Shown piece by piece: positions 27,863 through 52,104 of a DNA stretch of 64,000 nt (position 1 is its first letter; each line of letters opens with the position of its first letter). The stretch is from NCBI RefSeq assembly GCF_033547155.1, contig NZ_CP137892.1, forward strand, positions 3,906,001 through 3,970,000, written 5' to 3'. This DNA comes from Pseudomonas benzenivorans. GTDB lineage: Bacteria; Pseudomonadota; Gammaproteobacteria; Pseudomonadales; Pseudomonadaceae. A model generated the notes under the pieces. It saw only the letters and a program-made list of their open reading frames with translations, ran no database searches and was not told the DNA's origin. Both the position numbers and the translations under genes were made by a program.

Positions 27863-27939
27863 GGGCCTATAGCTCAGTTGGTTAGAGCAGAGGACTCATA
27901 ATCCTTTGGTCCACGGTTCGAGTCCGTGTGGGCCCACCA
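27863..27939 (+). tRNA. tRNA with CAU anticodon, probably tRNA-Ile2
   Basis: A complete 77-base cloverleaf with encoded CCA. The acceptor stem is GGGCCTA paired to TGGGCCC, the D loop contains AGTTGGTTAGA, the anticodon loop is CTCATAA, and the T loop is GGTTCGAGTCC. The CAU anticodon fits either elongator Met or Ile2 (lysidine-modified). The anticodon-stem and variable-loop pattern ending TTTGGTC is closer to E. coli ileX than to metT, so I favour Ile2. The intact 3' end with CCA is the junction between core genome and accessory DNA. Confidence 0.9.
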
Positions 27940-31016: not shown

Positions 31017-31480
31017 GACGCCATTTACGGCACTAAAAGTGCCCGTACTGGCACTGTTTTTCCAGGTTATACTTCATTATAAGTCATTGAAAATAAACAT
31101 TTTAATAATTTTTTTCATAACCAAATCGCCACTGAGTGGCCAGTGTTTTTGAATGCAACCATTTCGGCACGCCGGCCATGGCACCGCTCCGCGCCTCCCT
31201 GCTCGTTCCTTCAGTGCCATAGGCACTGGCTGCTGTTCGATTTTGATGACAAAAGGCTTGCGCGCGCTTTTGCTCACGGCGCACGCTGAATACAGATGAA
31301 GCGTGTCGCGTGAGTGAGAGCGCGCAACCCTTACTCGCGCCGCGAGTAAGGGGGCGTTGGAGTGGTTCAGACGGAACGAGAAAACACGTAGCGAAGGCGA
31401 AGGGGTTTCAGAGGAGTCTGAGCCGCACCAACGCCATTTCGCGAAGCGGCTTAGCTTTGTCATCAAAACAACAAGAAGAG
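31017..31480. repeat. Recombinase upstream region with several palindromes
   Basis: About 460 bases without a supported gene. It contains TACGGCAC-taaaa-GTGCCCGTA (31026-31047), the perfect palindrome CAGTGCC-ATA-GGCACTG (31212-31228), and a perfect inverted repeat with 12-base arms (CCCTTACTCGCG and CGCGAGTAAGGG) separated by one base at 31328-31352. An AT-rich segment at 31070-31120 (including TTATACTTCATTATAAG) could hold a promoter. An in-frame GTG at 31310 would extend the recombinase upstream through the 25-base palindrome, but the ATG at 31481 is better placed. Confidence 0.6.
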
Positions 31481-32443
31481 ATGACGACGATGCAGCCCGA
31501 CACCTTGAAGAAATACCAGACCAGAGCTCGAAACTTTTACCACGATCACTGCGGGTCAGATGCCCCAGATTCGGCGCAGATCTGCGCGGCTTTGCTTACC
31601 AGAGCCCCCCAATATCGGCCTAATGCGTTCAGCACACTCAAGAATGCCCTGATGAACGATCAGCTTGCTCGGGGAAACATCGAGGCGGCAAAAACCATCA
31701 AAAATCTGGTCAACCCGGTCACTGCACAGGGCAGTCAGATCGCAAAAAAGCCCAAGCTGAAACAGATTCGTAAAGTGCCCTTGGAGGACTTCAAGGCGCT
31801 CTACAAGCACCTGCATGTAGGCGGCTTTCTTGATGAAGCCGCCTCACTGGTGCTGGCATACTGGCTGGGCGTACGCCCCTGCGAGATGCGCACTATCACT
31901 GTCACCGACAACCTAGTGCACATCATTGGCGGCAAGAAATCTGCTGAGCTGCATCGCGGAGCTGACCGTACCTTAATCATCGGAAAACCCAACATTCTGA
32001 AACTGGTGGAGTGGGCCGCGCATCGGATGTCAGAGTGCCCACGCACCAGTACGGCAATCAGGGACTGCCTCCGCAAGGAATGCCGAAAACTCTGGCCCAG
32101 GCGGAAAAAACATCCGACGCTGAAAAGCTTTCGACACCAAATGGGCTCAATTCTGAAAGCGTCCGGAGAAAGCCCGGAAAGCATGGCTTACATCATGGGG
32201 CACCAATCCACAGAGTCGATCAGTGTGTACGGCGATGGTCGGCTAGGAGCAGGCATGAAATCACATGTCAGCCTTGCAGAGGGTGCCGTCCTGGGTAGCA
32301 TTCGTCAGCCACAAAAGCCACAGCGATATGGCCAAAAGCGCATTCTGGATGAGATCGTGTTTCCAGCCGCAACCAGGGGTCATTGGTATATAGAGATGAG
32401 GCGCCGGCAAGAAGCCAAGAATGTACTCACTCCGAAATCATAG
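31481..32443 (+). CDS. Tyrosine recombinase / integrase
   Basis: A 320-residue site-specific recombinase. The start ATG at 31481 follows AAGAAGAG and gives MTTMQPDTLKKYQTRARNFY, an N-terminal SAM-like DNA-binding domain of the kind seen in core-binding regions. The catalytic domain shows Arg132 (GVRPCEMRT), Arg218 in KSFRHQ (the usual first His of the HxxR box is a Lys here), His241 in YIMGHQS and the nucleophile Tyr250 in ISVYGDG. It lies 3.5 kb from the tRNA, not beside it, and differs from P4-type tRNA integrases. A decayed copy of its last third lies 570 bases downstream. Confidence 0.88.
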   Translation: MTTMQPDTLKKYQTRARNFYHDHCGSDAPDSAQICAALLTRAPQYRPNAFSTLKNALMNDQLARGNIEAAKTIKNLVNPVTAQGSQIAKKPKLKQIRKVPLEDFKALYKHLHVGGFLDEAASLVLAYWLGVRPCEMRTITVTDNLVHIIGGKKSAELHRGADRTLIIGKPNILKLVEWAAHRMSECPRTSTAIRDCLRKECRKLWPRRKKHPTLKSFRHQMGSILKASGESPESMAYIMGHQSTESISVYGDGRLGAGMKSHVSLAEGAVLGSIRQPQKPQRYGQKRILDEIVFPAATRGHWYIEMRRRQEAKNVLTPKS

Positions 32444-32794: not shown

Positions 32795-32955
32795 CTGTAT
32801 GTACGGCGATGGTCGATCTGGTGCAGATCAGCAAAGATACATTAGCCCAGCAGAAGGCATCGATCTGTAGAAGGTGCGATTCAAAAGCCCACCGCGATAC
32901 GGCATTGGGAAAGTGGTGGGTCGGATTGAGTTTCCAGCCTCTACTCGTGGCTGGC
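32795..32955 (+). pseudogene. Decayed copy of the integrase 3' region
   Basis: The bases 32800-32955 align with 32226-32387 of the intact recombinase: both begin TGTACGGCGATGGTCG and share further blocks such as CAAAAGCC, GCGATA, TTTCCAGCC and TCGTGG/AGGGGT near the end. The shared segment covers the region from the active-site tyrosine onward. Frame is lost through small indels and a stop. The rest of the 32444-33110 gap has nothing I can recognise. Confidence 0.7.
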
Positions 32956-33110: not shown

Positions 33111-34640
33111 ATGTCATTCCTGCAGGATATTCGCCGAATGCTCGTGCGCGCGGTCATTCGTCTCCTGGCCGACAGGCTGCCAAAGCCCAGAAGCACGAAA
33201 GAAAGCCTGCACATTCTCGTCCCCCGTTGGGATGCCAAACTGGGTGACTCGATCGTTTCGTCTTTCTTCTTTCGCGAGGCTCGCAGACTCAATGCCCGGG
33301 TGACCGTGCTGACGGTCGTAGAGCTTGCCCAGATGCACGCGCTGGACTTTGGTGTGGATCAGGTCGTGATCACGAACGCCAATCCTGGAGTACTCGAACT
33401 TCGCCACCTGGCGCAGCAGCTTGGACAGGTCGATGTCGTGGTGCATCTGGTAGGGAGAATCCAGCCTGCGGAGATCCTGTTTCTGCGATTGCTGCGTCCG
33501 GCCCGCGTGTACTCCCTTGATGACCGTTTACGCTGCGTCAATCGCAAGTTCGGTGAAGCAACTGCCGGCCTCGACATGGCCGAGCGCTACCGGCGCGTAC
33601 TCATGGACTTGGGTGCACGCATGGTCGATAGGAAGTACATCGTTCCCCTTCCTAACACGATGCCGCCCCCCACCCTCGCCCCGACAATCCTATTCAACCC
33701 CTACGCGAGCCGCACAGACAAATGCTTGGCCTTCGATCGATCCGTGAGTTTGCTGCACTCCATCGCCGATGCTTATCCAACCCGGTCTGTCGGCATCCTG
33801 TGCAGCCCCACGACCCGAGATGATGCGCTGCGCATAGAAGTAGCGGTGGCTAGACGAAACGTGCGCGTCGTCCATGGACTGGCATCCCCCAAGGATGTCG
33901 CCGGGTACATTCGCTGCGCACAGGTCGTGATCAGTGTCGACACGGCAATCGTACACATGGCGGTCGGCCTAGAAACAAAGTTGGTGGCAATCTACCCAGG
34001 CATCGCAGGACAAGCCAACCCGTGGCTTCCCCCATCTTCTCCTTTGACGCGGGTCGTCTACAGCCAGCAACACACTGGTCAGATTCGACGCGCCGGCAAG
34101 AAGGATATGAATGCGTTCTCTATAGAGGCTCTGTTGGACGACCTTCACGAGTTGTTGGCCACTACCCCCGAAACTGAGCAACTCCATTCGCTCAGGGCGA
34201 GGATAGTGCCCGGTCTAGGCGTCGCGCAGGGAACCCTCGCTCGCCAGTTGCCACTGATCAGCAAGGACTTCCCCGAGGTCGCAGACTGTCACCCCGGGAC
34301 CATAAACTTGGAGCTCGAATGTCCTCTCGAAGTGGCGCAGCCCGACCATCGCACTGCTCCGCTTGCCTGGACTCCGAGCGGACGGACGACTGAAGTATTC
34401 GACCTGGTACGCATTGAGCTCGAGTTCGGCCCATTACCAACGCGCGTGCCCGCATGGTTGTACGTTGCCCACGCCTCCCCTCACCGTGGCACACCGACTG
34501 TTCATGAGGTGATAGCCCAGCAGTTAAACCTGAGCGAGGTCCGTGAGTGTCAGATTCATCTGCGTGCAAGCGCTGTAACGCTGACACCCCCAGATCAACT
34601 AACGGCGCCCATCAGCCGCTCGCTCTCTCCTAGCCAATAG
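33111..34640 (+). CDS. GT9-type glycosyltransferase fused to DUF120 riboflavin-kinase-like domain
   Basis: A 509-residue protein with two parts. Residues about 30-350 resemble GT9 (ADP-heptose:LPS heptosyltransferase): LVPRWDAKLGDSIVSSFFF near the N terminus, ILFNPYASRTDK, and VVISVDTAIVHMAVGLETKLVAIYPG, which is the GT9 donor-site block. Residues about 370-495 look like the archaeal CTP-dependent riboflavin kinase fold (DUF120): VPGLGVAQGTL, then CHPGTINLELECPL, which matches the family PGTLNV motif. The GT9 part is the firmer call. A fusion of this kind is unfamiliar to me. Start at ATG 33111; the ribosome-binding site is weak. Its 3' end overlaps the opposite-strand gene by 46 bases. Confidence 0.7.
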   Translation: MSFLQDIRRMLVRAVIRLLADRLPKPRSTKESLHILVPRWDAKLGDSIVSSFFFREARRLNARVTVLTVVELAQMHALDFGVDQVVITNANPGVLELRHLAQQLGQVDVVVHLVGRIQPAEILFLRLLRPARVYSLDDRLRCVNRKFGEATAGLDMAERYRRVLMDLGARMVDRKYIVPLPNTMPPPTLAPTILFNPYASRTDKCLAFDRSVSLLHSIADAYPTRSVGILCSPTTRDDALRIEVAVARRNVRVVHGLASPKDVAGYIRCAQVVISVDTAIVHMAVGLETKLVAIYPGIAGQANPWLPPSSPLTRVVYSQQHTGQIRRAGKKDMNAFSIEALLDDLHELLATTPETEQLHSLRARIVPGLGVAQGTLARQLPLISKDFPEVADCHPGTINLELECPLEVAQPDHRTAPLAWTPSGRTTEVFDLVRIELEFGPLPTRVPAWLYVAHASPHRGTPTVHEVIAQQLNLSEVRECQIHLRASAVTLTPPDQLTAPISRSLSPSQ

Positions 34641-35395
34641 CCACGATCAGCCTCTATGTGCAGGAACAATTTGGCCAGCAAGGTACCGCCAGAGAGAAAC
34701 TCGTCAACAGATTCCATACGTTTGGCCGTACGCCGAAAGTAGGTGTTGTAGAGCTTGAGCAAGGTTGTATCGCTAACCAGGAAATCTGCAACGCCCACAT
34801 CCTGGCGACGCATCACCTCACAGCTTGCGAAGTTGTACCGTGGTCGGTAGCCGGGGTCGACGACATCTCCGGCAATAGGCACCAGCTCGTCAGCAGATTG
34901 CGCCACGATGTCCTTGATACGCCCAGGATTACCCCACGCATGGGCACCTCCTTCCAGTCCAGTAGCCAACGCCCGGGCAAGCAGGGGGTTTCCCGGTTGG
35001 GACGCGAAAATACATTCACTATGCCAATGCAGCTTATGACTAAGGCCTGCCGGAAACAGCGAGCTGGTTGGGTCGCGCAAGAACAGTGTGTCCGCATCCA
35101 CCCACGCGCCTCCATATCGATGGACGAAGGCCATGCGGATGAAGTCGCTCTTAGCAACTATGGCCTCGATCCCCTCCGCCAGAGTGAATGGCAACGGTTC
35201 AAAGGCCCATGGTTTACCAAGGATTCGAGGGTCAATCAGGTCCTGGACCGTCCGCGGTGTAAGCAATTGAAAGCGCTCACCCAGGGCTCTACGCATCGAG
35301 ACCAATGCCAGCGCGACATAGGCTGGCATAACCTGCCCAGGGGCACTTTCCCAATAGCTCACATATCGCACGGAACCATGAAGGCAGCTGTTCAC
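34595..35395 (-). CDS. DXD-motif glycosyltransferase (GT32/capsular-type)
   Basis: A 266-residue glycosyltransferase beginning at the GTG at 35395, whose GTGA overlaps the stop of the upstream PRTase-like gene; a longer frame into that gene is rejected. The central motif RYGGAWVDADTLFL carries the Asp-Ala-Asp metal-binding triad of GT-A fold enzymes such as GT32 and capsular polysaccharide synthesis proteins, preceded by SDFIRMAFVHRYGG. Acceptor unknown. Last gene of a four-gene coupled operon. Confidence 0.8.
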   Translation of the reverse strand: MNSCLHGSVRYVSYWESAPGQVMPAYVALALVSMRRALGERFQLLTPRTVQDLIDPRILGKPWAFEPLPFTLAEGIEAIVAKSDFIRMAFVHRYGGAWVDADTLFLRDPTSSLFPAGLSHKLHWHSECIFASQPGNPLLARALATGLEGGAHAWGNPGRIKDIVAQSADELVPIAGDVVDPGYRPRYNFASCEVMRRQDVGVADFLVSDTTLLKLYNTYFRRTAKRMESVDEFLSGGTLLAKLFLHIEADRGYWLGESERLMGAVS

Positions 35396-36516
35396 GGGTG
35401 AATCGCCCTGCCATCGGTACTTAGCAACCCGGCATTTGTCAGGTACTCCCTGAGCAACACCAAGGAAGGAGCACATTGCAGCTGACCTAGAAACTCGTTA
35501 CCCAAGGCAGACTTGTACAGGCGCAGCCAGGTCGGCGCAGGCACCTTCGGCAGGAAGGCCGCGAGAGACTCTCGGTTTCCCTCCCCGAACAACAGGCGCA
35601 GGGTGCGCAGGATTGGTTGGTAGTCCCGCGCAGACAACAGCTCCGCAACAGTATCGTCCAGCCGTTGCTCGACCACCACGCTATTCAGTCGGTCCTCGAC
35701 TGAGGCATCGCCGAGCGCCACACGGGGATCAATCGCCACCGGGTAGATCGCGTGGAACGACTTGGCACCGCTATACATGGATTCATAAAGCACTTTGTCG
35801 GCGGTAGATCCGGTAACCAACACATCGTCGCCGAAAATCACATGCACACCGCTCCAGCGGTAGAAATTCTCAGCCGGAATGACGTGATCCTGGACCAGAT
35901 TGACGTGCTCGCGTTCCTCGGTGCTGAGGCTGGCGTAGTCCTCGCAGGGTGGCGCAATCCTGGGTAGCTTGACGTTGATGATGGTCGGCAACGCCATATG
36001 CGCCAGTTTGACGTTGACCTCCTCGACCACAATCTCATAGAGCACGTTCGCCGTGGACGGCACATTGCGCCAACCAGTGGTCATCATCACCACGTTGTCA
36101 CCACAAGCCTTGGCGTTCCGGAACAGGCATGACCATTGCGAGTCCGACCTATCCAGCTCGCCGCAGAGGTAGTCGATCAGTTGTCGTGCGAGATACTGGA
36201 TGTCACCCACACTGCCGTATTTTGCACGGCTGTAGATCCCGGCCAGTGCTGTGGCATCGGTGTCCGTGGCCATGTCGCGGAACAACCCCGACTCGGCAGG
36301 TGTAAGGCAGTTCAGGGCAGTTCCGCCGAAAATCGAAACATACTCGGCCATGCTGACCAGTTCGCGTGCAAACAGGTCGGCAGCGAACGCGCGGAAACCA
36401 GTTTTCACATCATCAGCACGGGGCTGAGCGGAAGCCTGACGAAACATCGCCAACTGGACATCAACCGGGCTCTTAAGTACCTCGGACCATAGCGGGGAAT
36501 TTCCGGGGGTCATCAT
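35392..36516 (-). CDS. Phosphoribosyltransferase-like protein
   Basis: A 374-residue protein I do not recognise as a whole. The segment HVIFGDDVLVTGSTADKV (about residues 225-242) matches the PRPP-binding loop of type I phosphoribosyltransferases (hydrophobic-DD-x3-TGxT), and SFHAIYPVAID follows as expected for the next strand. No hood sequence points to a known base. I start at ATG 36516 with AAGGA seven bases upstream; a TTG at 36522 overlapping the PHP stop is the alternative. Coupled between PHP and glycosyltransferase genes. Function inferred: transfer of, or release from, a phosphoribosyl group. Confidence 0.65.
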   Translation of the reverse strand: MMTPGNSPLWSEVLKSPVDVQLAMFRQASAQPRADDVKTGFRAFAADLFARELVSMAEYVSIFGGTALNCLTPAESGLFRDMATDTDATALAGIYSRAKYGSVGDIQYLARQLIDYLCGELDRSDSQWSCLFRNAKACGDNVVMMTTGWRNVPSTANVLYEIVVEEVNVKLAHMALPTIINVKLPRIAPPCEDYASLSTEEREHVNLVQDHVIPAENFYRWSGVHVIFGDDVLVTGSTADKVLYESMYSGAKSFHAIYPVAIDPRVALGDASVEDRLNSVVVEQRLDDTVAELLSARDYQPILRTLRLLFGEGNRESLAAFLPKVPAPTWLRLYKSALGNEFLGQLQCAPSLVLLREYLTNAGLLSTDGRAIHP

Positions 36517-36518
36517 GT

Positions 36519-37385
36519 TCAAGGCCGTTCAAGTCCTTCTGTCAAAGTTGCTGGTGTGCCCGGTAACGCCAGGCTGTCGAGGGCGATATCGATTCGTCGG
36601 CGCCTCTCGTAGTAACTAATGCTCTTCAGCCCCAAAGGCCTCAGGGCCTCGAGCAGCTCGGCAATGCCCGCACCGGCATCACTCGGGTCATGGGCATCAG
36701 ACCCAACCGTGAAGGGCACTTCGTGTGCGATGAGCTGTGCCACCAATTCCCGAGACGGATAAGACCAAAAGCCCTGAACCTCCCTACCCGTTGTAGGGTC
36801 AAGGCTCGACTTTCGAAGACCTGAGGCATTGAGCTCGAATGCGATACCGCTTCTGGCGAGCGGCGTCAGCAAAGGTTCGAAACGGCGCAGGAAGATGTCT
36901 TCCGGCACGCCACGCAGCAAGGTGTCGGCGTGCCCTACGGCATCGAACAGTCCACTGTCTAACAGACCTTCGAGATTGGCGAAGTAGCGATCTAGGAACG
37001 CCTGCCCGGCAAGGCGCGGAAGTTCCCAGACCTTCACCATGGTTTTGTCTGGATCTTCCACGTAATGAATCGAGCCGATTACGAAGTCCATCGGGTAACG
37101 AGCAAGCAGCTCGCGATTGAAGGCGTCGGTGCCTGGCATGTAGTCGAGCTCCAGGCCACACAGGATGGTGATCTGCCCCTGGTAGATCTCCCGCGTCCGC
37201 TCGATGTCGGCGAAATAGCGATCAAGTTCGGACGCGAGCAGACGATTGTCCGTATCCACGGGGAACGGCGCGTGGTCGGTGATGGTCAGGATGGTCACGC
37301 CGGCGGCGATCGAGGCGCGAACCAATTCATCGACAGTGCCGGTCGCATGCTTCGAATAAGAGGTGTGGCTGTGTGAGTCGATCAT
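36519..37385 (-). CDS. PHP-domain phosphoesterase (HisK/histidinol-phosphatase-like)
   Basis: A 288-residue metal-dependent phosphoesterase of the PHP superfamily. Start ATG 37385 (MIDSHSHTSYSKHATG) overlaps the radical SAM stop by 4 bases; the longer frame runs into that gene and is rejected. The PHP ligands are all visible: DSHSH at residues 3-7, TITDHAPF, LCGLELDY, IGSIHYV, AVGHADTL and VGSDAHDP. Such enzymes release phosphate from small phosphorylated metabolites. A histidine-pathway role is unlikely given the neighbours. Confidence 0.85.
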   Translation of the reverse strand: MIDSHSHTSYSKHATGTVDELVRASIAAGVTILTITDHAPFPVDTDNRLLASELDRYFADIERTREIYQGQITILCGLELDYMPGTDAFNRELLARYPMDFVIGSIHYVEDPDKTMVKVWELPRLAGQAFLDRYFANLEGLLDSGLFDAVGHADTLLRGVPEDIFLRRFEPLLTPLARSGIAFELNASGLRKSSLDPTTGREVQGFWSYPSRELVAQLIAHEVPFTVGSDAHDPSDAGAGIAELLEALRPLGLKSISYYERRRRIDIALDSLALPGTPATLTEGLERP

Positions 37386-38482
37386 GCAGCCTCCCATTGT
37401 TCGAGCAACCCGGCATGACCTGCCAACTCCTTCACTAGCCAGTAGGGGTTGTTCGTCTTGGCAATGATTGAACGCAACAGGTCCGTGTTCTCCAGGCGAG
37501 CCAGCAACTCTGTCAAGGGTTGCGTATAGAGCGCTCGGATTAGAGGTGTCTCCCGCACGTGGGCAACTAGCCGTTGCCAATCGACTCGATCAAAGTGAAT
37601 GTTGCCCAGGCGCTGGTTCTCGATGCCATACAGGTATACGTCACCGCTAGGCTTCACCGTGACATCCAAACCGTTGGCATGCGGCGGTTTGTTCAGGCTG
37701 CCGAACGTGAAGCGCTTGTTGACCTTGGACTCGATCGCCTCGATGTAGCCCAGCATGTCCAGATAACCGGGGGCGGTTCCTGGAGCGGGGTGTACGAGGT
37801 TCTTGTAGTCGATGCCGAAGCACTCGCCGCGCGCGACCAGTACGTCTTCCAGCACACTCCGCGGCTCGATGGCTGTTTCAAGCCCCCAGTAGGCCAGTTC
37901 GGACTTCAGGTACTCGCGAGTGAAGTCACGATCAGTATCGATCGACCGGAACGAGAAACTCAGCCCGGCCGGCCGCCGACGCCGCAGGTAGTCCAGACTG
38001 AAACCATGGGCTCGCCATTTGACCTTCTCGATATGGTGGCTGTCGGCGCTCAGGCGAATATTGCAGGTGTCGCCATTGCCCGAGACGATGCGGTTCGTCG
38101 TGTCGTAGAAGTCCGCCATCTTGTCATGTGGGTAGAACCCACTGGTGATGAATTCGAAGCAATTGCCGCCTTCGGACAACCCGAGAATCTCGTGGAACAC
38201 TTTGGCGTTGTTGAGCGGCTCGCCTTCGCCGCTGATAGAGATGCGCTTGACCTCCGGGGCATTGATCAACCTAGCGAGGTTTTCCCGCGCCAACGTTGAT
38301 AGCTCCATGCTAATGCCCGCTTTGTGCTTGTCGGCGTACATACAGAAGGCACAGCCGATGCCGCATATCTGGGTGATGTCGATGTAAAGCAGATGACCTT
38401 GGAGATCCATGTCCGATGACTCTATACAGCCTCGCGCCAACAACGCGGGCAACTGTCCTAAAGGAAACGTAACGCTGGCCAC
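37382..38482 (-). CDS. Radical SAM protein
   Basis: A protein of up to 366 residues with the cluster-binding motif CGIGCAFC (Cys40, Cys44, Cys47 counted from the GTG at 38482) and the GEGEPL motif (about residue 85) that contacts S-adenosylmethionine. An internal ATG at 38410 (MDLQGHLLYIDITQ) may be the true start, since the first 24 residues look unconserved and no good ribosome-binding site precedes the GTG. There is no obvious SPASM domain, but a C-terminal helical extension. First gene of the coupled operon. Confidence 0.82.
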   Translation of the reverse strand: MASVTFPLGQLPALLARGCIESSDMDLQGHLLYIDITQICGIGCAFCMYADKHKAGISMELSTLARENLARLINAPEVKRISISGEGEPLNNAKVFHEILGLSEGGNCFEFITSGFYPHDKMADFYDTTNRIVSGNGDTCNIRLSADSHHIEKVKWRAHGFSLDYLRRRRPAGLSFSFRSIDTDRDFTREYLKSELAYWGLETAIEPRSVLEDVLVARGECFGIDYKNLVHPAPGTAPGYLDMLGYIEAIESKVNKRFTFGSLNKPPHANGLDVTVKPSGDVYLYGIENQRLGNIHFDRVDWQRLVAHVRETPLIRALYTQPLTELLARLENTDLLRSIIAKTNNPYWLVKELAGHAGLLEQWEAA

Positions 38483-38658: not shown

Positions 38659-39612
38659 TCAGCCCACTCGGCAGAACGCCAATCCTTGATACCCGGCCGG
38701 ACTATTCAGAATTGGCAGATCCAATTGCTCATCGCGCATGAACTCCAGCTGCATAACGTTGCCGCGGATGATCTCGTGTGCACCGACGGCCTGCTCAGCG
38801 ATGCTAAGCAAGCGAGCATGATTGGCTTCGCCTTGCTGACCCGCCATTAGGCGCAGCGCCGGATTATTCAGGCTTTGCTGCAGCCGCTGACCGAACCCGG
38901 CATGACGTTCCTTGAACTCATTGGCGAGATGCGCAGCCAGATCCATTTCCCCCAAACGAGCCAGCACCTGCAACCGCCCCTGCGCAGACATCACCCAACC
39001 CCGGTAAGCGGCCGCGAACTCGCCGGGCTGCATATACTCAAACGAACGCTCACTCACATGCTGCAATAGCCCACCAAAGTAACTTTGGCTCTCTGCGAGC
39101 TGGCTGTTAGCAATGCCGAGCTGCTGCTGCATCATCGCGGCATTACGATACAGCCCGGCCTCGCGTACATGCTGCAGGGAGGCATGTAAAGGAGCCAGCC
39201 GGCTGATCATCTGCCTGACATCTAGCCACTCGACACCCTGCCGGATGTCGTCGAGCTTGCCATCCATGTGTCTAAGCTGGTTCTCGATACCCTGCAGCTT
39301 GTACAGCGTGAGCGCAAAGCCCACGACACTGACCGCCAGATTGGCCACCTGCAGCCCCATGATCAACTGCTGTTGCACACCGAGCATTTGCAGTTGCTCA
39401 GCCTGCTGACGCAGCAACTGGACATGCTCGGCCCCCTGTTTGAGCAACTGTTCGGCAGTATCACGTTCCAGCAGCACACCTTCCTGCAGCCACATCACGA
39501 TCTGCTTGTCACCCACCCTGCGGATGACGCCACCGATACGTTCATAAACACCGTTTTTCAGCCCCTCGGCAATCGCCTCCGGCACATCGAAAATCACATT
39601 TAGCTCAGCCAT
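38659..39612 (-). CDS. Coiled-coil membrane protein, unknown
   Basis: A 317-residue protein without a family I recognise. The ATG at 39612 (MAELNVIFDVPEAIAEG) is chosen because GGAG stands six bases upstream inside the end of the YaaW-like gene; an ATG four codons earlier lacks this. Glutamine- and leucine-rich helices (about residues 50-90) lead into one hydrophobic segment (LQVANLAVSVVGFALTLYKL, about 91-110), then more coiled coil. It overlaps the upstream gene by 8 bases and is the last gene of the YaaW operon. Confidence 0.7.
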   Translation of the reverse strand: MAELNVIFDVPEAIAEGLKNGVYERIGGVIRRVGDKQIVMWLQEGVLLERDTAEQLLKQGAEHVQLLRQQAEQLQMLGVQQQLIMGLQVANLAVSVVGFALTLYKLQGIENQLRHMDGKLDDIRQGVEWLDVRQMISRLAPLHASLQHVREAGLYRNAAMMQQQLGIANSQLAESQSYFGGLLQHVSERSFEYMQPGEFAAAYRGWVMSAQGRLQVLARLGEMDLAAHLANEFKERHAGFGQRLQQSLNNPALRLMAGQQGEANHARLLSIAEQAVGAHEIIRGNVMQLEFMRDEQLDLPILNSPAGYQGLAFCRVG

Positions 39613-40375
39613 CGAAAGCTCCATTCATGAAGTCAGTCGCGGCCTCGGCACGAGCCTTGAGACGCAGCATGGCGATTTGCAACACGCAAGGGATGGTGAC
39701 CCGGTAGGCTGGGCCGGCCAGATCCACGGCGGTCCAGACACCGGCTATCACCCAGCCGACCGGCCCGGCTAGCGCGGCGACGGCACGACCGCCAGCGAAG
39801 GTTCCCCCAGCAACCACCGCACTGCGCAGCCCGTGCCCAAGCAGCTGCTGAGCCATCGAGTTCACGATCACCGTCGAAGTGCGATAGAGGATCAGCCGTG
39901 CTACGGCCGGCACTACCAGCCCACTCAGTGCCGAACCATTCAGCAGAGCCGTCATCTTGGTCTTGTCGAGCCCCGCCTCGCGCAGAATCACTTCCAGCTC
40001 GCGGCGATCCTCGCCCGACGACTTCTCCAACGCCTGACGGAGGATCGACTGCACCATCGCCTCCTCCAGTTCAATGAGTTCCATTGAGCCAGCCCCCTTG
40101 ACCTTGAGCTTGCTGGCAACATCCCGGACCACCTCGGTGTAGGAAGGCCCGCTCTTACGCCACAGGTTGACGAAGCTGTTCCCGCCGAACAAACGCAGCT
40201 CATCAAGGATCGAACTGGCATAGCGGCGGTGTTCCGGGTGGCTGCGCTTGAAGTCCACTTGCTTCGACAGCGACTCGGTATTGGCCTTGAGGATGTATTC
40301 CACCAGAGGTTCCAGATCATCATTGCTGGCACGCTCCAGAAGCTGGCGGGTATTGCTGATATCGATGCTGGTCAC
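39605..40375 (-). CDS. YaaW/UPF0174 family protein, paralogue 1
   Basis: A 256-residue homologue of E. coli YaaW. Family blocks are DELRLFGGNSFVNLWRKSGPSYTEVVRDVASK (broken here at residues about 57-88) and, near the C terminus, a glycine-rich hydrophobic stretch ending AYRVTIPCVLQIAMLR, almost identical in pattern to YaaW. The hydrophobic C-terminal third suggests membrane insertion. The start is the GTG at 40375, with AAGGAG eight bases upstream, sharing one base with the stop of the small upstream gene. Biochemical function of the family is unknown. Confidence 0.85.
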   Translation of the reverse strand: MTSIDISNTRQLLERASNDDLEPLVEYILKANTESLSKQVDFKRSHPEHRRYASSILDELRLFGGNSFVNLWRKSGPSYTEVVRDVASKLKVKGAGSMELIELEEAMVQSILRQALEKSSGEDRRELEVILREAGLDKTKMTALLNGSALSGLVVPAVARLILYRTSTVIVNSMAQQLLGHGLRSAVVAGGTFAGGRAVAALAGPVGWVIAGVWTAVDLAGPAYRVTIPCVLQIAMLRLKARAEAATDFMNGAFDG

Positions 40376-40473
40376 TACAGCAACTCCTTGTTCTGCTGGC
40401 AAGCGTCCTGACTGATCAGCCCCGCTCTATGGGTCAGCGCGGCCAGTCGGCTCACATGCTCATTACCGGACAT
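40375..40473 (-). CDS. Small 32-residue coupled protein
   Basis: A short frame between the 47-residue membrane protein and YaaW paralogue 1. It begins MSGNEHVSRLAALTHRAG and ends QQNKELL, with an excellent ribosome-binding site (AAAGGAT, 5 bases before ATG). Its TAG shares a base with the GTG of the next gene, so it is either a real small subunit or a leader that couples translation. It is hydrophilic and resembles nothing I know. Confidence 0.6.
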   Translation of the reverse strand: MSGNEHVSRLAALTHRAGLISQDACQQNKELL

Positions 40474-40693: not shown

Positions 40694-41521
40694 CTAATCG
40701 TGAATGGAATGAGGTAAGCGACTCGCAAGCCGTGCGCCGCAACTGCTACAAAACTTACTGCCAGCGGGAATCGACGCGTGGCATTCAGGGCACCCGTCCT
40801 TGAGCAGCATTTTCTGGCGCATGTGGCCAATCTGGATGACGCATGGCACCGTCACCCGGTAGGCCGGGCTGGCCAACTCGAAGGCCGTCCAGATGCCGGT
40901 AATTGCCCAGCCGACGGGCCCTGAGAGCACCGCCAATCCCCTGCCCATGGCAGCGCCCCCGGCAAACGCGACGCCCCGGCCGACCAGGCTGCTCATCGTT
41001 GCGCTGGCCACTACTGCGGCAAGCCGGTAGGCAGTCGAGCTGGCACTCAGGCTGGTGATCAGCGCTGCCAGGGCAGCCGCGCCCATTCCCGGCCGGTAGC
41101 TGGCCCCCATCGACTCAAAGAAGGTTTCTTTGTCTTCCTCGCTCATGCGACCAATCGACTGCTCGACCACCTTGGCGATGATGGCCATTTCCATCTGCGC
41201 GCAATCGCCCGTGCCGGTCTTCGAGACACCCACGTGAGAAGCAACATCGCTCAGCAGTTCTACATAAGACACGCCGCTGCCGCCCCGGAACAGGTTCATC
41301 AGCGAGTTGCCGCCAAACCGCGTGAGCTCTTCGGCGACCAATGCGCGCTCGTAGTCGCCGACTTCACCCTCCTTCGCCGCGGTCAGTTGGCGGCAAATCG
41401 CTGAGGACAACGAGATCCGCCCCTTACCGCTGTCGGTGATGACGTCGATCAGCAGCCCAATATCGTCAGCGCTAGCGCTCATCAGCACGCCTGCCAGGTC
41501 GGCGTCATGAATGATTGACAT
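40694..41521 (-). CDS. YaaW/UPF0174 family protein with zinc ribbon, paralogue 2
   Basis: A 275-residue second YaaW-like protein. It shares EELTRFGGNSLMNLFRGG and the C-terminal GPVGWAITGIWTAFELASP-AYRVTVP block with paralogue 1, and adds a C-terminal zinc ribbon, CPECHASIPAGSKFCSSCGA (four cysteines as two CxxC knuckles). Start ATG 41521 has AGAGGAA eight bases upstream; a longer frame reads into the XRE gene. First gene of the operon, just downstream of the XRE regulator. Confidence 0.85.
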   Translation of the reverse strand: MSIIHDADLAGVLMSASADDIGLLIDVITDSGKGRISLSSAICRQLTAAKEGEVGDYERALVAEELTRFGGNSLMNLFRGGSGVSYVELLSDVASHVGVSKTGTGDCAQMEMAIIAKVVEQSIGRMSEEDKETFFESMGASYRPGMGAAALAALITSLSASSTAYRLAAVVASATMSSLVGRGVAFAGGAAMGRGLAVLSGPVGWAITGIWTAFELASPAYRVTVPCVIQIGHMRQKMLLKDGCPECHASIPAGSKFCSSCGARLASRLPHSIHD

Positions 41522-41550
41522 ACTGCGATTCCTCTTGAATGTTCGATGAC

Positions 41551-42171
41551 CTAGTCGCCGATGTTCGGGTCGTGTGGAGTCCCCCGGCTCACTAGCGCAC
41601 CAGCTACTGCGGCCAGCGCAACGCGAGGCTGGGCGGCATGGACTGGGCGGAGCATCAAGGCATTGAGCTTGAGGCAGGCGAGGCGGCGCCATTCATCCCT
41701 CGCGGTTGCGCGCTTGATCTCTGGAGAGGAGCCAACCCCCATCGGGCGGGCATCGGGGTGAACCTTACATTCGCGCAACACCTTTTCGACCGGGCTTCCG
41801 AAGTCCAACTGGCCGTCGTTATGCAGTTTCACAGCAGCAGCCAGGTAATCGTTGATGCTGCCCATGGCATTGGCCAAGGCAACCCAGTCCTGGGGGCGCA
41901 TAAGTAGGAAAGCCGGAGGAACACCAAGGACATCGGCGATTCGATCAAGCGTGTCGAGGTCTGGATTAGCTGCAACTTCGCCACGCCGTGACTTCAATGC
42001 CCGGAGGGTGCTGCGGGCAACACCTGTTTCGCGCTGTATGCGGGTTGCCGTGATTGGCCCTGCAGTGCCGTTATCGCGCGGCTTGCCGGCAACGGCCAGC
42101 ACGGCGCAAAGGTTATCGCTGAAGTACTGGCCCAGCGCCTTGGGCGGACCATCTGGCAGGTTTCTATCCAT
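41551..42171 (-). CDS. XRE-type helix-turn-helix regulator
   Basis: A 206-residue protein with a Cro/C1-like DNA-binding domain in the first half (ATRIQRETGVARSTLRALKS; LDTLDRIADVLGVPPAFLL). The C-terminal half is unrecognised and may bind a ligand or dimerise. It precedes the YaaW operon by 29 bases and is divergent from druHE, with twin palindromes in the intergenic region. It probably autoregulates and may control one or both neighbours. Confidence 0.75.
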   Translation of the reverse strand: MDRNLPDGPPKALGQYFSDNLCAVLAVAGKPRDNGTAGPITATRIQRETGVARSTLRALKSRRGEVAANPDLDTLDRIADVLGVPPAFLLMRPQDWVALANAMGSINDYLAAAVKLHNDGQLDFGSPVEKVLRECKVHPDARPMGVGSSPEIKRATARDEWRRLACLKLNALMLRPVHAAQPRVALAAVAGALVSRGTPHDPNIGD

Positions 42172-42532: not shown

Positions 42533-45500
42533 GTGGCGCTTGTCCAATGGATCTCAGATTTTCTATCCAGGCGTAGACTGCAAGAGCCAGATGGCCGTCC
42601 CCTTTTTGCCTATAAGACCTCCTCAGAAGAGTTCGAGGCTCTGCGCCGGCTTTTGCAGGATCTTCCTGGAGGGCAGCAATTAACTTCCAGTTACCCTCAG
42701 GCTTGGCTACTGTTTGCCGCCGAGTGGTGGAAGCGGGAATATTCAGGTGGCGCATGGCGCTGGGCTCCGCTGTGCGAGGCGGCAGGCCAGCGGGGCATGT
42801 CACATGAGAAGACTCGCAAGCTGGTCATCGAAGGGCGTCGCCAATGGCGCCTGCAAACCGCCATCAAGAATGAAGGCAAACGCTTCATCGGCCTAGTAGC
42901 GGTGAATGGCGGCCTGCCTATGCGCTTGGTCGAGTCGGCGCAGGGCGGACTCTCCGGCCTACTGCGCATGGTCACCTTACAGGCGGTGGACTACGACCTG
43001 CGCGATGAGCAACTGCGTCAGGCTATTGAAGCCCAGGCTACTCTTTTGCCTGCATGCTATCAGCAGGCACCGGTCTATGAGCTACTGGATAACCTGATCA
43101 AGGCAGTGCTGCATATCCGCAGGACCTATGCCCTGAACGGTGCCCAAGATCCGATCGCGAAGCTGCAGGAAGAATGCCCTCAGTGGGAAGAGCTCTTTCC
43201 CATCGCGCTCGACAGTCAGGCCGCAGCCAGTCTCATTAAGGGCCTGGTCCGTGTCACAGTCAACATCACCCCCCAGTCCAGACGCCCCCCTTTCCAGATT
43301 CAACGTGGCCTGCGCTTCAGCTCAGATGGCTCCATGCCCGTCTACGAGCTGTCCTTTGCAATGCAGGCACAAGCCAAGCGAGATCAAGTTGCCGAATCAC
43401 TGGGCTTGGCTGCTGATCGGCTGCCGCCGCACTTCCAACTGCTGCTACGCATCGGGGAGCGGGAGCACCTAGTCGGCGAAGCATTGCTAAGGGATGACGA
43501 GTATCAGCTTATCGCCAGACCGCTGCCCTCCATTCAAACTGTGCACGAATCTGCGCAGCTGATAGTCAGTCGCTGGGGCGCCACTTTGCACATCGCCAAC
43601 CTGCCCGGCGGCGAAGCGTTAAGCCACGACGAACCGCTGATCTTCGAAAATACTTATCCCTTTGCTCGTCTGATTGCGCAGGGTGATGCACTGGTGAAGG
43701 GGCTGTCCGCACTGGCGGTCATGCCGGCAAGAACCATCGTATTGGCCGAGGAAGGCGAGACTCGTGAACTTCACGACTGCCTTGCTGATGGGCAGATGCT
43801 GATAGAGCTTCCGGCCGGCAAAACAAGGCTTGCTTATCGCGGACAAGCGTTCACTGTCACCATCAGCGCCAGTGCTACGCAGCGCCCGGAAGCCTACTGG
43901 CAAGGTAATAGCCTAGAGGCGCTTTCTGTGCCGGGCCTGCTGTTCCGCGGTACGCCACGCCTTCGAGTCGATCAGGATCCGGGGCATTCCAGTTACGCGC
44001 CGTCCCATGAGCTTTTTGTTCGCAGCAACTCCAAGGAGCTACCACTCGGTGAGGCGCAGACGCCAGGACTATGCCGTCTGATCTGGCGCAAGGATGGCCA
44101 GCGCTTGCTGAGTACCCGCGCCGTACTCCTCCCGGAGGGAGCTTCCATTACCTATGTTCCAGCGGCAAGCACCCTGGAAGGGACCATTCGGCTCGATAAA
44201 TGGCCCGACCTACCAGTCCGTTGCGAGAACGAAGAGATCGCGCTGGACAGCCGACATGATGGGACAACCCTAGTCCTCAGGCTGAAAAGCACGGGCGATC
44301 GGCCTGCTACTTCGGTTCCGCTCTGCCTGCAATGGCCCGACGGCGAGCATAGGCTCACGCTACCGTTCCCCGGTTATGGCGTCACGCTGCAGCGCAACAA
44401 TCTACCTCTCAGGCCCAATCAGGCCCTGACCATCGATGAGTTGATCGGTTGTCGTGCCCTTTTAATGTCGGCAGAGGGCGCAGAGCATTGGCAGGTTCGC
44501 CTGACGTCTGTTGGACCCGATGCTCGCTCCACCCTGTCTCAGGAAATTCGCTACACGGGAATTCGAGAGATACGGCTGTTCGAGCTGATCCCGGCGATCC
44601 AACAGATGCTTTCCTGCCACCCGGGACTAGATCATGCTGTGCAGTTGGAGCTAGAACATACCCATCAGACACTTGCTCGCCTTCAAGTCGGCCGCTACTC
44701 GACACGCATCCGCCCTCACAGCCAGAGACAGATGGTGTCATTGAGTGATGGAGGCCGAGACCTCATTCTCGAGCAGCCCCAAGCGGAGGGCCTGATGCTA
44801 GCTCTACCGCTGGCCGAGCCTGACCATGAGCCGGTCAGCCTACCATTGCATTTCTCCGAGCAGGTATTCACAGGCAACTGGCTGATCAGCCTGCCGACAG
44901 ATGCGACTGGACCCTGGTTGATCTACACCTCAGACGGATCACCACTGCATTGCCGCCCGACAGTTGTTCCACCGACCATGATTGGCCTGCCGAAGCCATT
45001 GACTCCTCTGCGTCAGGCGCTCTGCGAGTCCGATGGCGAGGTGCGCATAAGCATGCTTAGAGCCGCTCTGCGCTCCATGGCTGCTGACCCGCAAGATAAG
45101 GACTGGCAAACGCTGGAACTTCTACTTGAGCGACTGCACCACTTGCCACCGGCCAGCCTGGATATTTGCCAGGCACTGATACGTGAGCCGCAAGCGCTCA
45201 CCATGACCACACTGCTCCTAGACGGCTTCTCCAGTCGCATGGCTGAACGCTTGCCCTCAGAGCTGCCCTTCGAGTGGATGCTCATCGCTCCAGACCACTG
45301 GTTCGAAACCTTCGCGATACTTCGTCAGCAGTTTGCCGCTAGCGACGACAGACTATTGTCGATCATCCGCCACGACATCCAGAGCAAGAGTCAGTACCTA
45401 TCTCGCTGGCAACCTGCACTGCGCTTCATTTTCGAACAGGGCTTCCACCGCTACTTCGATCTCCAAAGCCAGGATGTGGGGTTCTTCCTGAAAAACCCGA

Positions 45501-45883
45501 CGGTGCTGACCGAAATCTGGTTAGACAGGCTGTTTGAAGGGGGAGAGAAATCTGCCATGCAGCGGATGTTCCAACGCAACCCTGCTGAAACCCATCAATA
45601 CCCTGGCGCCGGGAATACAAATATCGGGGCATTCCTGAAAACTACGCATGGCCAATTACTACTCCGCTGCAGCAAGCTTCCTGCCAACGACTTCAAGTTG
45701 GCCGTGGTAATGCTGCCCTTCATGGCGGCCTTCGACGCCCACGCCGGCCATGGCAGACAGTGGCAAGCCGATCCGGCACGCCTGCTCAGCCTCAGAAATG
45801 CTCGCCTATTCGATACCGTCTGGTTTGATTCTGCCTATGAACTCGGTCTGGCCATGGCGCAAGCCGACTCTATGCACAAGTGA
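42533..45883 (+). CDS. druH: Druantia type III protein DruH (STY4851/ECs_5259 family)
   Basis: A 1116-residue protein with no enzymatic motif I can see. Its size, its place directly before a DUF1998 helicase gene with a 4-base overlap (GTGA), and its general pattern match DruH, the partner of DruE in type III Druantia, an anti-phage system. It starts at GTG 42533 after AAGGA (MALVQWISDFLSRRRLQEP). The body appears rich in beta strands. Role in the system is unknown; I infer it recognises or binds the target. Confidence 0.72.
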   Translation: MALVQWISDFLSRRRLQEPDGRPLFAYKTSSEEFEALRRLLQDLPGGQQLTSSYPQAWLLFAAEWWKREYSGGAWRWAPLCEAAGQRGMSHEKTRKLVIEGRRQWRLQTAIKNEGKRFIGLVAVNGGLPMRLVESAQGGLSGLLRMVTLQAVDYDLRDEQLRQAIEAQATLLPACYQQAPVYELLDNLIKAVLHIRRTYALNGAQDPIAKLQEECPQWEELFPIALDSQAAASLIKGLVRVTVNITPQSRRPPFQIQRGLRFSSDGSMPVYELSFAMQAQAKRDQVAESLGLAADRLPPHFQLLLRIGEREHLVGEALLRDDEYQLIARPLPSIQTVHESAQLIVSRWGATLHIANLPGGEALSHDEPLIFENTYPFARLIAQGDALVKGLSALAVMPARTIVLAEEGETRELHDCLADGQMLIELPAGKTRLAYRGQAFTVTISASATQRPEAYWQGNSLEALSVPGLLFRGTPRLRVDQDPGHSSYAPSHELFVRSNSKELPLGEAQTPGLCRLIWRKDGQRLLSTRAVLLPEGASITYVPAASTLEGTIRLDKWPDLPVRCENEEIALDSRHDGTTLVLRLKSTGDRPATSVPLCLQWPDGEHRLTLPFPGYGVTLQRNNLPLRPNQALTIDELIGCRALLMSAEGAEHWQVRLTSVGPDARSTLSQEIRYTGIREIRLFELIPAIQQMLSCHPGLDHAVQLELEHTHQTLARLQVGRYSTRIRPHSQRQMVSLSDGGRDLILEQPQAEGLMLALPLAEPDHEPVSLPLHFSEQVFTGNWLISLPTDATGPWLIYTSDGSPLHCRPTVVPPTMIGLPKPLTPLRQALCESDGEVRISMLRAALRSMAADPQDKDWQTLELLLERLHHLPPASLDICQALIREPQALTMTTLLLDGFSSRMAERLPSELPFEWMLIAPDHWFETFAILRQQFAASDDRLLSIIRHDIQSKSQYLSRWQPALRFIFEQGFHRYFDLQSQDVGFFLKNPTVLTEIWLDRLFEGGEKSAMQRMFQRNPAETHQYPGAGNTNIGAFLKTTHGQLLLRCSKLPANDFKLAVVMLPFMAAFDAHAGHGRQWQADPARLLSLRNARLFDTVWFDSAYELGLAMAQADSMHK

Positions 45884-51800: not shown

Positions 51801-52104
51801 CGCGATCCGTCAGGCGTTGGAGTATTGTGGCCTGGAAGCCGATGTCCTCAGCCTTCCGGCTTTGCCGCACTACCGCCAGTTGCAACTGCAGTTGCGCTCT
51901 GGCAAACAATTGACCATCCAGTTTGATCAGGGGCTTTCGTATTGGGAGGCCGAGCGTAGTGCAAAGCCTTATCTGCTCAGGTTCGATTTCTCATCACCTC
52001 AGCTTGGAGAAAAAATCATGACGCGCATCCAGTGCAGAGTATTGGCGGCCAGTGATGAAAACACCCAGATATTCATTTCATCCACAGGATGCTCTAACGG
52101 CTAG
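45880..52104 (+). CDS. druE: Druantia DUF1998 helicase DruE
   Basis: A 2074-residue superfamily 2 helicase of the MrfA/DUF1998 type. Visible: Walker A SGTGSGKT (about residues 133-140), DEAH in IILDEAHTHIGS (265-268), SATF as motif III, and motifs V/VI in TTMEMGVDIGG and QRAGRAGRRREG. Zinc knuckles CGHCGA and CQDCG lie in the middle, and the C-terminal DUF1998 region has DSCNCSHACQRCLLSF. The length matches DruE (about 2000 residues). Start GTG 45880 or ATG 45889. With DruH it should form type III Druantia. Confidence 0.85.
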   Translation: MSPMLYKKNYFSALTTNLSTRSERAAQGLLSLGSPHLRQFLHDQLIASPGTPGAWLADPVFEPTFGWEESNETMGSLSGGNLLHPRLAEAMASPPKDLAQEYTFPYTRHPFTHQLAAWKTLNSQKPQSLVVTSGTGSGKTECFLVPVLNHLAKEIDTGEDLEGVRALFIYPLNALINSQQNRLDAWTDGFGGQIRHCLYTGALENERKASDQQYKGQVIDRKSLRERPPQLLVTNATMLEYMLIRKDDESILQKSAGKLRWIILDEAHTHIGSQAAEMALLLRRVMLAFQVKPQDVRFVATSATFGSDMQTIESLRKFLADIGGVAPEQVHVVQGHRDIPALLDAKPEISQDTPESIEAIEGEQEQSALRYRRLEASPTARRLRSLFIPDGQVKPQSLQGLTKASGLTAAQILAWLDLMSGTKSADGLSYLPLRAHLFHNVIPAIRACVDRNCAYKAGTALDHAEWPFGMVYLEERTHCRCNAPLMPLVSCEECNESFLQAKPTSSGRLIDQSQQQVDEFSLDEDSVDAEDQVDNDSESLSQILITNRPVTHGRSEFLDRTSQKLMFDGPKEDYIELQVFQSHKNECPCCGATIQGRSLLRPARIGTPFTLSTVIGTLLEFCPPDPMPSGKPFQGRKLISFTDSRQGTARIAVKLQQDSERNRIRGLIYQRLLQAQPAAAMSEEELQDFHDLQARAASQTLDRYAQKYLEQLQEKQAETAKGTEIRWTDMVNHLASTPDLQLGILDYYHGLAPKTFGKQDSIALAKMLLAREFFRRPKRANSLETLGLVQVCYPKLTNITTKPMAWPAHLDVESWRTYLKVLLDFFVRQNAILNIDKQWQSLIGIRISPKWVVAPVSDGKPDRLPGRYARWPTVNTVSSAQSRAILLLCKAFNWSTAAHQDQIDSILRDAWQALTQQAKLLISSGDGYQLDLNDLSFRLPTEVYLCPVSRRFIDTPFEQLSPYTPRTDRAMVVKVTPYTLPRPPEDLLHLPGDDGLLATRDWLNTQPEIQQLRQESLWSDVMDLVIEGGNYFHAAEHSAQQPKHKLDTYESMFKAGKLNLLSCSTTMEMGVDIGGISVVAMNNVPPHPANYLQRAGRAGRRREGRSLALAVCKNTPHDQSVFNNPLWPFSTPMRMPKVSLQSPELVQRHINAWLLSHWLKHVVAAQEIKSMTAGAFFLDGEMPMSLAKRFCLWCNNQASEAEPQVVQAIKDITRRSILDSAPQPELLKRASSSLTEIMQAWRQEHEASHSQLLQIADKKAVASRAMEAQLSRIEKEYLLSELADRRFLPGYGFPTDIVSFDNRCMQTLKLEEVDKREDNRARYRSLASRDRVTGLREYAPGAELVMDGLVYKSSGITLNWHAPASAEGIKELQLFKKAWRCGHCGASDTAINPGLEINCQDCGAPIERDEIREYLVPAGFAVDFFDEPHNDISRLQYVPVKAPWLNVPSSWVCLANPALGQFRSSQQAHLFHYTSGANQQGFAICLECGKAEPMLSHPDTSAPANEQYLPAIFRQKAQHRRLRGGKNDDGGNICPGSQNSWKIKQGIHLGHDSLTDALELVLRTPSNGELLNDDITGYSIAVALREAIAAELGVQTEELGCDCHPIRVEGSPTRAIRIFDLRSGGYTSQAAERLNDSSLWQRVITRLDSCNCSHACQRCLLSFDTRFEADRLNRHAALEWINQTWLTGLELPPELAVLGSQSQAEITTLLEAVERAITQDDNAKTVTVYLAAPAEDWDLAVARRLRHQLQNWEDAGHQVQLHLLESTFAALPSDQREWLAKLSFNGIQICLHKAMPDLGVLALNITVHGARSNFAWASDNANLAAPGRTWDLAAAGVRIIRGVPPTLKPERVLDTSDLLPPAPQGLVKVEIGNHLDGSLDGFARRLWEHLRQEAGSLVADAITGQDPIIELVYSDRYVCSPLVVNLLVNMIHEIGAHSDEGFAIRIQGRKYQKDDNRSPWQCRHDWRTSQERDHAIRQALEYCGLEADVLSLPALPHYRQLQLQLRSGKQLTIQFDQGLSYWEAERSAKPYLLRFDFSSPQLGEKIMTRIQCRVLAASDENTQIFISSTGCSNG

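Follow-up and report, generated by a model that had tools for sequence, protein, structure and literature searches.

A mobile radical SAM-PHP-phosphoribosyltransferase cassette found beside interchangeable defence modules: a candidate pathway to a nucleoside-like metabolite

Organisation of the locus

The window analysed here is a stretch of 64,000 nt from the 4.5 Mb one-contig genome of Pseudomonas benzenivorans (C1:3906001-3970000), and all coordinates given below without a locus number are positions in this window. At 33111-38482 it carries a cassette of five enzyme genes, four of them co-directed on the minus strand and the fifth facing them, which we tentatively interpret as a mobile biosynthetic unit associated with phage defence. 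The cassette consists of a radical S-adenosylmethionine enzyme (rSAM), a PHP phosphoesterase, a phosphoribosyltransferase-fold enzyme (PRTase) with a motif for phosphoribosyl pyrophosphate (PRPP), and two proteins with glycosyltransferase domains, and it is preceded by a short leader:

38411..38460, minus strand: short leader ahead of the rSAM gene, travelling with the cassette; homology to locus L007 begins 49-50 bp before the rSAM ATG
37382..38410, minus strand: radical SAM enzyme of an uncharacterised subfamily, 342 amino acids (aa), cluster motif CGIGCAFC
36519..37385, minus strand: PHP phosphoesterase, HisJ-like, 288 aa
35392..36516, minus strand: type I phosphoribosyltransferase-fold enzyme, PRTase_3-like, PRPP motif FGDDVLVTGST
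34595..35395, minus strand: DXD glycosyltransferase, GT32/capsule-synthesis-like, 266 aa from the GTG at 35395
33111..34640, plus strand: GT9 heptosyltransferase-family domain (residues 28-354) and a riboflavin-kinase-like domain of the cytidine triphosphate (CTP)-dependent type (residues 355-488)

A check of the open reading frames (ORFs) recovered all five as the original prediction, made from the sequence alone, had described them, that is, four minus-strand genes joined by 4-base overlaps or near-overlaps and a fifth gene facing them. The rSAM and PHP genes overlap by 4 bases (37385/37382), the PRTase stop has 4 bases in common with the GTG at 35395, and the GT9 gene is convergent with the glycosyltransferase gene with a tail overlap of 46 bases. 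A gap of 2 nt separates the PHP stop from ATG 36516, which is the PRTase start in relatives, while the alternative TTG at 36522 of the listed ORF would overlap the PHP gene by 4 bases. The rSAM gene had been taken to begin at GTG 38482; this start has to be corrected to ATG 38410, the start of the family, which gives a protein of 342 aa in most loci.

Families and folds of the encoded enzymes

The active-site motifs named in the original prediction are borne out by alignment. After removal of sequences with less than 70% cover or with a stop, all 37 rSAM sequences have CxxxCxxC, the His/Asp/Glu metal-type residues, which we take to be the PHP metal set, are invariant in 38 sequences, and the DAD (DxD) of the DXD glycosyltransferase is invariant in 24. 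The DDxLxTGxT motif of the PRTase is likewise invariant in 26 sequences. The predicted folds were likewise all upheld, either by structure comparison or by family profiles, and this includes the PRTase and DUF120-like assignments, which had been named beforehand as the points at which the prediction could fail and which both hold by structure comparison.

In particular, the rSAM protein scores 27.2 bits on PF04055, just under the gathering cut-off of 29.5, and a 16-sequence profile found no relative in the PDB at E<=0.01. The PHP protein contains a PHP domain (E 4e-23) and passes TIGR01856 hisJ_fam (125.5 bits, cut-off 90.2), it stays below the stricter NF005596 model (174 against a cut-off of 202), and its profile matches the histidinol phosphatase 2yxo in the PDB with E 2.6e-35. 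The window PRTase has no Pfam match at E<=1. However, among five relatives chosen for precomputed PF15610 scores one, P0082, passes PF15610 PRTase_3 (30.5 bits, cut-off 28.7) and four lie below, and structure comparison shows a PRTase fold, with ComF as the top structural match. For the DXD glycosyltransferase the match to PF04488 (Gly_transf_sug) is marginal (23.8 bits, cut-off 23), that to a capsule-synthesis family is below cut-off, and its family profile found no sequence relative in the PDB. The GT9 domain scores 30.5 bits on Pfam Glyco_transf_9 (cut-off 22), and its fold also agrees.

The tail of the GT9 protein is a case of its own, as PF01982 was detected in 0 of 36 members of the family and nowhere in the window's own genome. 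MJ0056 is the best PDB match of a 36-sequence profile (E 0.0064), and the tail matches this riboflavin kinase structurally over the whole domain (VIA-align list); the 50 Foldseek matches listed do not include a riboflavin kinase. Compared to the archaeal CTP-dependent riboflavin kinase (DUF120, MJ0056), the tail differs in being bacterial, fused to a glycosyltransferase and missed by the Pfam model. In 398 phylum genomes a DUF120-like profile search picked up the window's copy and a single gene outside the cassette, in G395, with a stop within the match; judged by eye from an ORF list, the genes around it looked unrelated. In addition, riboflavin-kinase-like proteins of about 145 aa that apparently stand alone form a family in bacteria (P0134-P0239), which Pfam misses too.

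Core and dispensable genes

In a PF15610 search none of 398 phylum genomes scored over the cut-off, and even the gene of the window was not picked up; an alignment of the PRTase family was therefore used in its place. With it, 34 related loci were collected from the GTDB genome set, to which the PRTase itself added three plasmids, and genes were counted as near-complete at >=60% cover and >=38% identity. Dropped before counting were L001, L002 and L040-L052 (short or off-target), L039 (a near copy of L037) and L054, L057, L058, L059 and L060 (the same records as L010, L022, L024, L023 and L019, respectively). A looser first count of any match with E<=1e-4 had given rSAM-PHP-PRTase in 39 of 40 loci and GT32, GT9 and DUF120 in 29, 30 and 26 of 35; it was replaced by the strict count because fragments and a diverged fusion had been counted.

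By the strict count rSAM, PHP and PRTase are near-complete in 37 of 40 distinct loci (window included), the exceptions being L025 and L036, which are cut by contig ends, and L009, which is without rSAM and PHP. Of the 34 GTDB loci, 20 have all five genes near-complete. Among 35 loci with >=3 kb downstream, all five genes are found in 26, the DXD glycosyltransferase (GT32) in 28, GT9 in 27 and the DUF120-like part in 26. A co-occurrence of five genes to this extent is far beyond chance. The claim that the five genes form one unit therefore stands as regards its conservation and has to be amended as regards its composition: the core consists of rSAM, PHP and PRTase, and a locus can do without GT9, the second glycosyltransferase or the DUF120-like tail.

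The glycosyltransferase end of the cassette is indeed variable. L008, L017, L032 and L035 have rSAM-PHP-PRTase without a near-complete relative of either window glycosyltransferase within 8 kb downstream, and in L030 and L033 the GT9 protein is about 360 aa long and has no riboflavin-kinase-like tail. L005 encodes a 702-aa fusion passing Glyco_transf_9 (25.8 bits, cut-off 22), Caps_synth (49.8, cut-off 24.5) and Gly_transf_sug (28.5, cut-off 23), with an orphan DUF120-like ORF beside it; a 686-aa protein of L003 is similar to this fusion, and in L006 the same is split over two ORFs. We take these arrangements as a sign that the two glycosyltransferases work together.

Such proteins also invite a different explanation, namely that the other cassette enzymes make a sugar which GT9 and the capsule-type glycosyltransferase attach to lipopolysaccharide or a different glycan of the envelope, thereby masking phage receptors. 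The GT9 domain belongs to the heptosyltransferase family, the other glycosyltransferase is similar to sugar-transfer families and, at scores under the cut-off, to those of capsule synthesis, and the L005 fusion lies well over the Caps_synth cut-off. However, the core is made up of other enzymes, and the four loci just named keep it without such glycosyltransferases; judging from the loci compared, no sixth gene recurs as a flippase or polymerase, and glycan pathways do not usually include a PRTase or a riboflavin-kinase-like domain. We consider a surface-glycan role unlikely.

Distribution and exchange of the cassette

PRTase matches were found in 10 of 398 genus genomes (nine full-length and one partial) and, at the level of the class, in one of 369 genomes, which is the window's own. 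rSAM matches occur in three of 149 genus genomes, each of which also has a PRTase match, and in 2 of 74 genomes of a smaller draw; judged from their handles, not one by one, the 149 genomes appear to be part of the set of 398. Among 72,556 plasmid records, PRTase and rSAM both match the same three (Citrobacter, Enterobacter, Raoultella). The protein clusters contain 256 PRTase relatives, of which P0004, named Pseudomonas aeruginosa, is 94% identical and stands for 507 contigs. Neither a PRTase nor an rSAM relative was found in phage records, and viral contigs gave 13 pattern matches and no PRTase relative; cargo of phages was rejected on these grounds. A common E. coli system was rejected as well, there being no DNA match in a search that would miss diverged copies. 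From this scattered distribution it follows that the cassette is sporadic and mobile.

Pairwise comparisons show where the exchanged segments end. The window shares with L004 (Pseudomonas ceruminis) a single block of 9.15 kb at 91% identity, comprising a helix-turn-helix (HTH) gene, two JukA genes, JukB and the cassette in the order HTH-JukA-JukA-JukB-rSAM-PHP-PRTase-GT-GT9. With L007 (Stutzerimonas stutzeri KOS6) it shares the cassette (91% over 5.3 kb) next to a different upstream module, which in L007 is McrBC-like and accompanied by a 208-aa ORF. Between L007 and L004, in turn, the McrBC-like part is 99.6% identical over 2.2 kb and the cassette 94%, with the Juk block lying between them in L004 only. 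L021, with a McrBC-like module upstream, is 93-97% identical to L018, L022 and L056, with JukA upstream, from 74-75 bp before rSAM onward. Towards L003, L005 and L008 the continuous homology of the window is limited to about 3.0 kb (rSAM-PHP-PRTase, 90-92%), beginning 0-31 bp before the rSAM ATG, and the leader of L005 has 99 bp in common with L003 and 59 bp with L008, again behind differing upstream modules. As leader and block remain homologous behind different upstream modules, we conclude that a short leader belongs to the cassette and that exchange involves the cassette as one block.

A double hairpin about 75 bases before rSAM was observed in L018, L021, L022 and L056, where base changes appear to preserve the stems; it begins exactly where the homology between swapped modules starts. 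It was seen in one Pseudomonas lineage, with z values down to -3.7 (L056) and of -0.2 in the window.

Defence modules upstream of the cassette

The original prediction had placed defence genes beside the cassette, and the context is stronger than claimed, with Juk genes directly upstream:

38659..39624, minus strand: JukB-like gene, directly upstream of the cassette (PADLOC JukB 1.7e-7; no Pfam match)
39605..40402, minus strand: JukA (JukA1; PADLOC JukA 1.8e-100)
40694..41692, minus strand: second JukA (JukA2; PADLOC JukA 1.1e-55) with a C-terminal zinc ribbon (Zn_Ribbon_1 31.1 bits, cut-off 25)
41551..42171, minus strand: HTH protein heading the Juk block (HTH_26 24.6 bits, cut-off 22)

In a census of 37 loci with >=3 kb upstream, the JukA family was found within 5 kb upstream in 22, and in the genus sample JukA lies upstream of nine of nine full-length cassettes. 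With 46 JukA matches of any strength in the 149 genus genomes, chance adjacency would be well under 1% per cassette, the nine being related loci and not nine independent events. The HTH protein recurs upstream of JukA beside the cassette, and the JukA2 lineage recurs with it in Pseudomonas, co-diverging with the PRTase. After loci more than 97% identical in PRTase had been dropped (22 to 16), PRTase and JukA distances correlate with r 0.76 over 16 loci (lowest reachable p 1 in 2001) and PRTase and rSAM distances with r 0.90 over the same loci; host descent could add to this. In the window and L004 JukA is followed by a JukB-like gene. Other loci have in its place a coiled-coil protein of 409 aa that gives a weak NYN-RNase match, or a PDC-M40B protein, tested in L012 and with relatives in other enterobacterial loci. 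A Juk variant consisting of HTH, JukA and the 409-aa protein instead of JukB is found with the cassette (L010:3009-5996) as well as without it (L067:5462-8382).

One might suppose from this that the cassette is the effector half of Juk, JukA sensing the phage and the cassette enzymes executing the response. Besides the frequency of JukA upstream, the shared 9.15 kb block and the co-divergence just described, L033 (4041-7072) argues for such a coupling, with JukA, a tail-less GT9 and rSAM packed in one run in which JukA and GT9 overlap by 4 bases. On the other hand, 15 of the 37 cassette loci are without JukA, the window already has a JukB-like gene, JukB being the effector described in the accessible part of PMC13282480, and closely similar cassettes stand behind other modules. 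Furthermore, among the 14 strongest JukA matches in the 149 genomes (E<=4.4e-42) four, at three loci, adjoin a cassette, and the other ten, with the strongest matches not already known beside a cassette serving as control loci, have no cassette gene within about 6 kb. An effector half of Juk is improbable, and as the sole role of the cassette it was rejected on the count of 22 of 37.

The other upstream modules are of several unrelated kinds. A McrBC-like module, called from an AAA domain with sub-threshold DUF2357 and also showing MkoB and sub-threshold wHTH-PRTase_assc, lies upstream in L007, L008, L017 and L021, and upstream of Juk in L004; its parts in L007, L008 and L017 are 27-70% identical to L021. 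L011 and L036 have PIN, an unknown protein, AAA_2 and a small rSAM upstream, and L003 retains a remnant of this module; the parts in L036 and L034 are 34-97% identical to L011. The AAA_2 ATPase is PDC-M37B/DolB-like and the small radical SAM protein has a Fer4_12 match. This module adjoins the cassette in both orientations, being downstream and inverted in L034; when upstream, both recurring modules are co-oriented with rSAM. Elsewhere PDC-M09A/B (L026), BrxH-PglZ-BrxA of BREX (L005) or a HerA-like gene (L035) is found upstream. As separate observations, the PIN/AAA genes form a four-gene candidate defence module (L011:3-5800, L034:10260-16257, L036:3-6001), and the first protein of the McrBC-like module in L021:88-5926 is a sub-threshold wHTH-PRTase_assc match.

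The McrBC family restricts modified DNA, and the recurrence of its relatives beside the cassette would fit a scenario in which the enzymes make or attach a glycosylated hypermodified base in tRNA, rRNA or DNA, marking self or blocking use by the phage. The chemistry of rSAM, PRTase and glycosyltransferase enzymes does occur in nucleoside modification. However, in curated family scans of the five proteins no nucleic-acid-modifying or -binding family reached its cut-off, RNA methyltransferases of the rSAM superfamily giving weak sub-threshold matches only, and a nucleic-acid target is rather unlikely.

Alternatively, the cassette might serve general stress or metabolism with no link to phages, being merely carried in islands that collect defence genes. 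L029, L030 and L032 have no recognised defence genes alongside, and a leader that stays with the cassette when the upstream module changes fits independent expression. Against this stand the recurrence of the same partner families at diverged sequence and, apart from L034, the co-orientation of upstream partners with rSAM, and we regard a role of this kind as distinctly unlikely.

Comparison with known systems

Juk is the nearest known system by context, since JukA and a JukB-like gene lie directly upstream in the window and JukA is the commonest neighbour of the cassette. As far as the accessible text of PMC13282480 goes, Juk consists of the JukA sensor and effectors such as the pore-forming JukB, and the five cassette enzymes do not appear in that description. 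The JukA sensor is present at the window locus, but in gene content JukA and the cassette do not depend on each other. As the cassette has its own leader, stands without recognised defence neighbours in some loci and is joined to several unrelated modules, it is better regarded as an autonomous defence-associated pathway than as a Juk subunit.

The prokaryotic viperins (pVip) resemble the cassette in having a radical SAM enzyme in a defence setting, and a small-molecule antiviral is imaginable here too. The window rSAM, however, scores 13 bits on NCBIfam viperin NF038283, whose cut-off is 180, and viperin identity was rejected on this score; to our knowledge viperin needs no PRTase, PHP or glycosyltransferase. 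PADLOC models gave nothing on the five proteins beyond a weak match of pVip to rSAM (E 0.001). Ter-associated PRTase operons have been proposed to make a nucleoside-like metabolite; the likeness to PRTase_3/ComF-like proteins lies in P0082 and the ComF fold match, the difference in the window protein having no Pfam match. The polyoxin/nikkomycin and oxetanocin pathways combine an rSAM enzyme with a phosphatase, and nucleoside antibiotics thus provide precedents for this logic. The cassette might follow them by analogy only, with radical chemistry on a 5-prime-phosphorylated nucleoside and then dephosphorylation; it differs in that no transporter or resistance gene was seen recurring with it and that it mostly lies beside defence genes.

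The original prediction knew of no named system with this gene set, and none was found in PADLOC or the literature searched, the gene composition of Ophion not being part of the comparison. The legend in which PMC13092281 names a PRTase gives too little detail to compare. According to the available part of PMC13282480, which cites bioRxiv 10.1101/2025.09.30.679545, Ophion strongly co-occurs with Juk, Ophion and Dionysus are anti-jumbo-phage systems, and Ophion and Juk are both found in P. aeruginosa, the species for which PRTase cluster P0004 is named. By gene content no known system fits the cassette as a whole, and Ophion is the main threat to its novelty.

Proposed function

The interpretation starts from the folds, the intact active-site motifs, the co-occurrence of the genes and the movement of the block beside interchangeable modules (Juk, McrBC-like, PIN/AAA, PDC-M09, BREX), which look like partners or cargo and not like obligatory parts. 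We favour, with somewhat less than even confidence, the view that the cassette is an autonomous, horizontally mobile biosynthetic unit, most likely making a glycosylated modified nucleoside-like metabolite within the cell as a chemical arm of phage defence. In the simplest reading of the enzyme families, from which every step is inferred, the PRTase would use PRPP to couple ribose 5-phosphate to a base or something base-like, radical chemistry by the rSAM enzyme would rebuild the nucleotide or its base, and the PHP enzyme would take phosphate off. The GT9 and DXD glycosyltransferases might then attach one or two sugars, and the riboflavin-kinase-like tail, in most loci, could add phosphate from CTP.

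In a more specific version, which we regard as doubtful, the cassette is a constant small-molecule factory, in which rSAM-PHP-PRTase and the glycosyltransferases make one nucleoside-like compound (an antiviral, a messenger or a self-mark) and the upstream spot takes interchangeable phage-sensing or nucleolytic modules (Juk, McrBC-like, PIN/AAA, JukA-PDC-M40, PDC-M09, BREX).

Several points weigh against a defence metabolite of this kind. No characterised protein is close enough to the rSAM enzyme to settle which chemistry it performs, and a PRTase fold is alone no proof of transferase activity on a base. Glycosyltransferases and tail are absent from some loci, and glycosylation is therefore not essential to the core. 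All loci were found via the PRTase and are mutually related, so that the locus counts are not independent events. With regard to context, JukA and the cassette each occur without the other, as outlined above, and of the 37 loci four (L014, L029, L030, L032) have nothing recognised directly upstream, L028 has only a weak SIR2-like fragment and L003 only a remnant. As some loci are without an upstream module, defence may be no more than the usual address of the cassette.

If the proposed function is true, bacteria would own a mobile five-enzyme immunity cassette with an unseen product. An rSAM subfamily that has no characterised relatives would make this product, a riboflavin-kinase fold known from archaea might complete it, and chemistry would be added to the Juk story. 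The compactness of the cassette, its sharp ends and its natural occurrence with and without Juk make its role in immunity and its product separately testable.

The window as a defence island

By PADLOC profiles the window is a defence island. Beyond the Juk block it contains the following features, the last three of which lie on the other side of the cassette:

42533-45883: DruH (Druantia III; PADLOC)
45880-52104: DruE (Druantia III; PADLOC)
52859-57576: PDC-M16A/B (PADLOC)
58027-63924: type I restriction-modification genes and an RT-associated RmuC protein (PADLOC)
about 32799-32951: fragment 46% identical to the C-terminal part of the integrase-like gene
31310-32443: integrase-like gene (PF00589 20.2 bits, under the cut-off of 27.1)
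27863-27939: tRNA-Met, some 3.4 kb from the integrase-like gene

Together, the integrase-like gene, the fragment and the tRNA-Met mark a possible border of the island.

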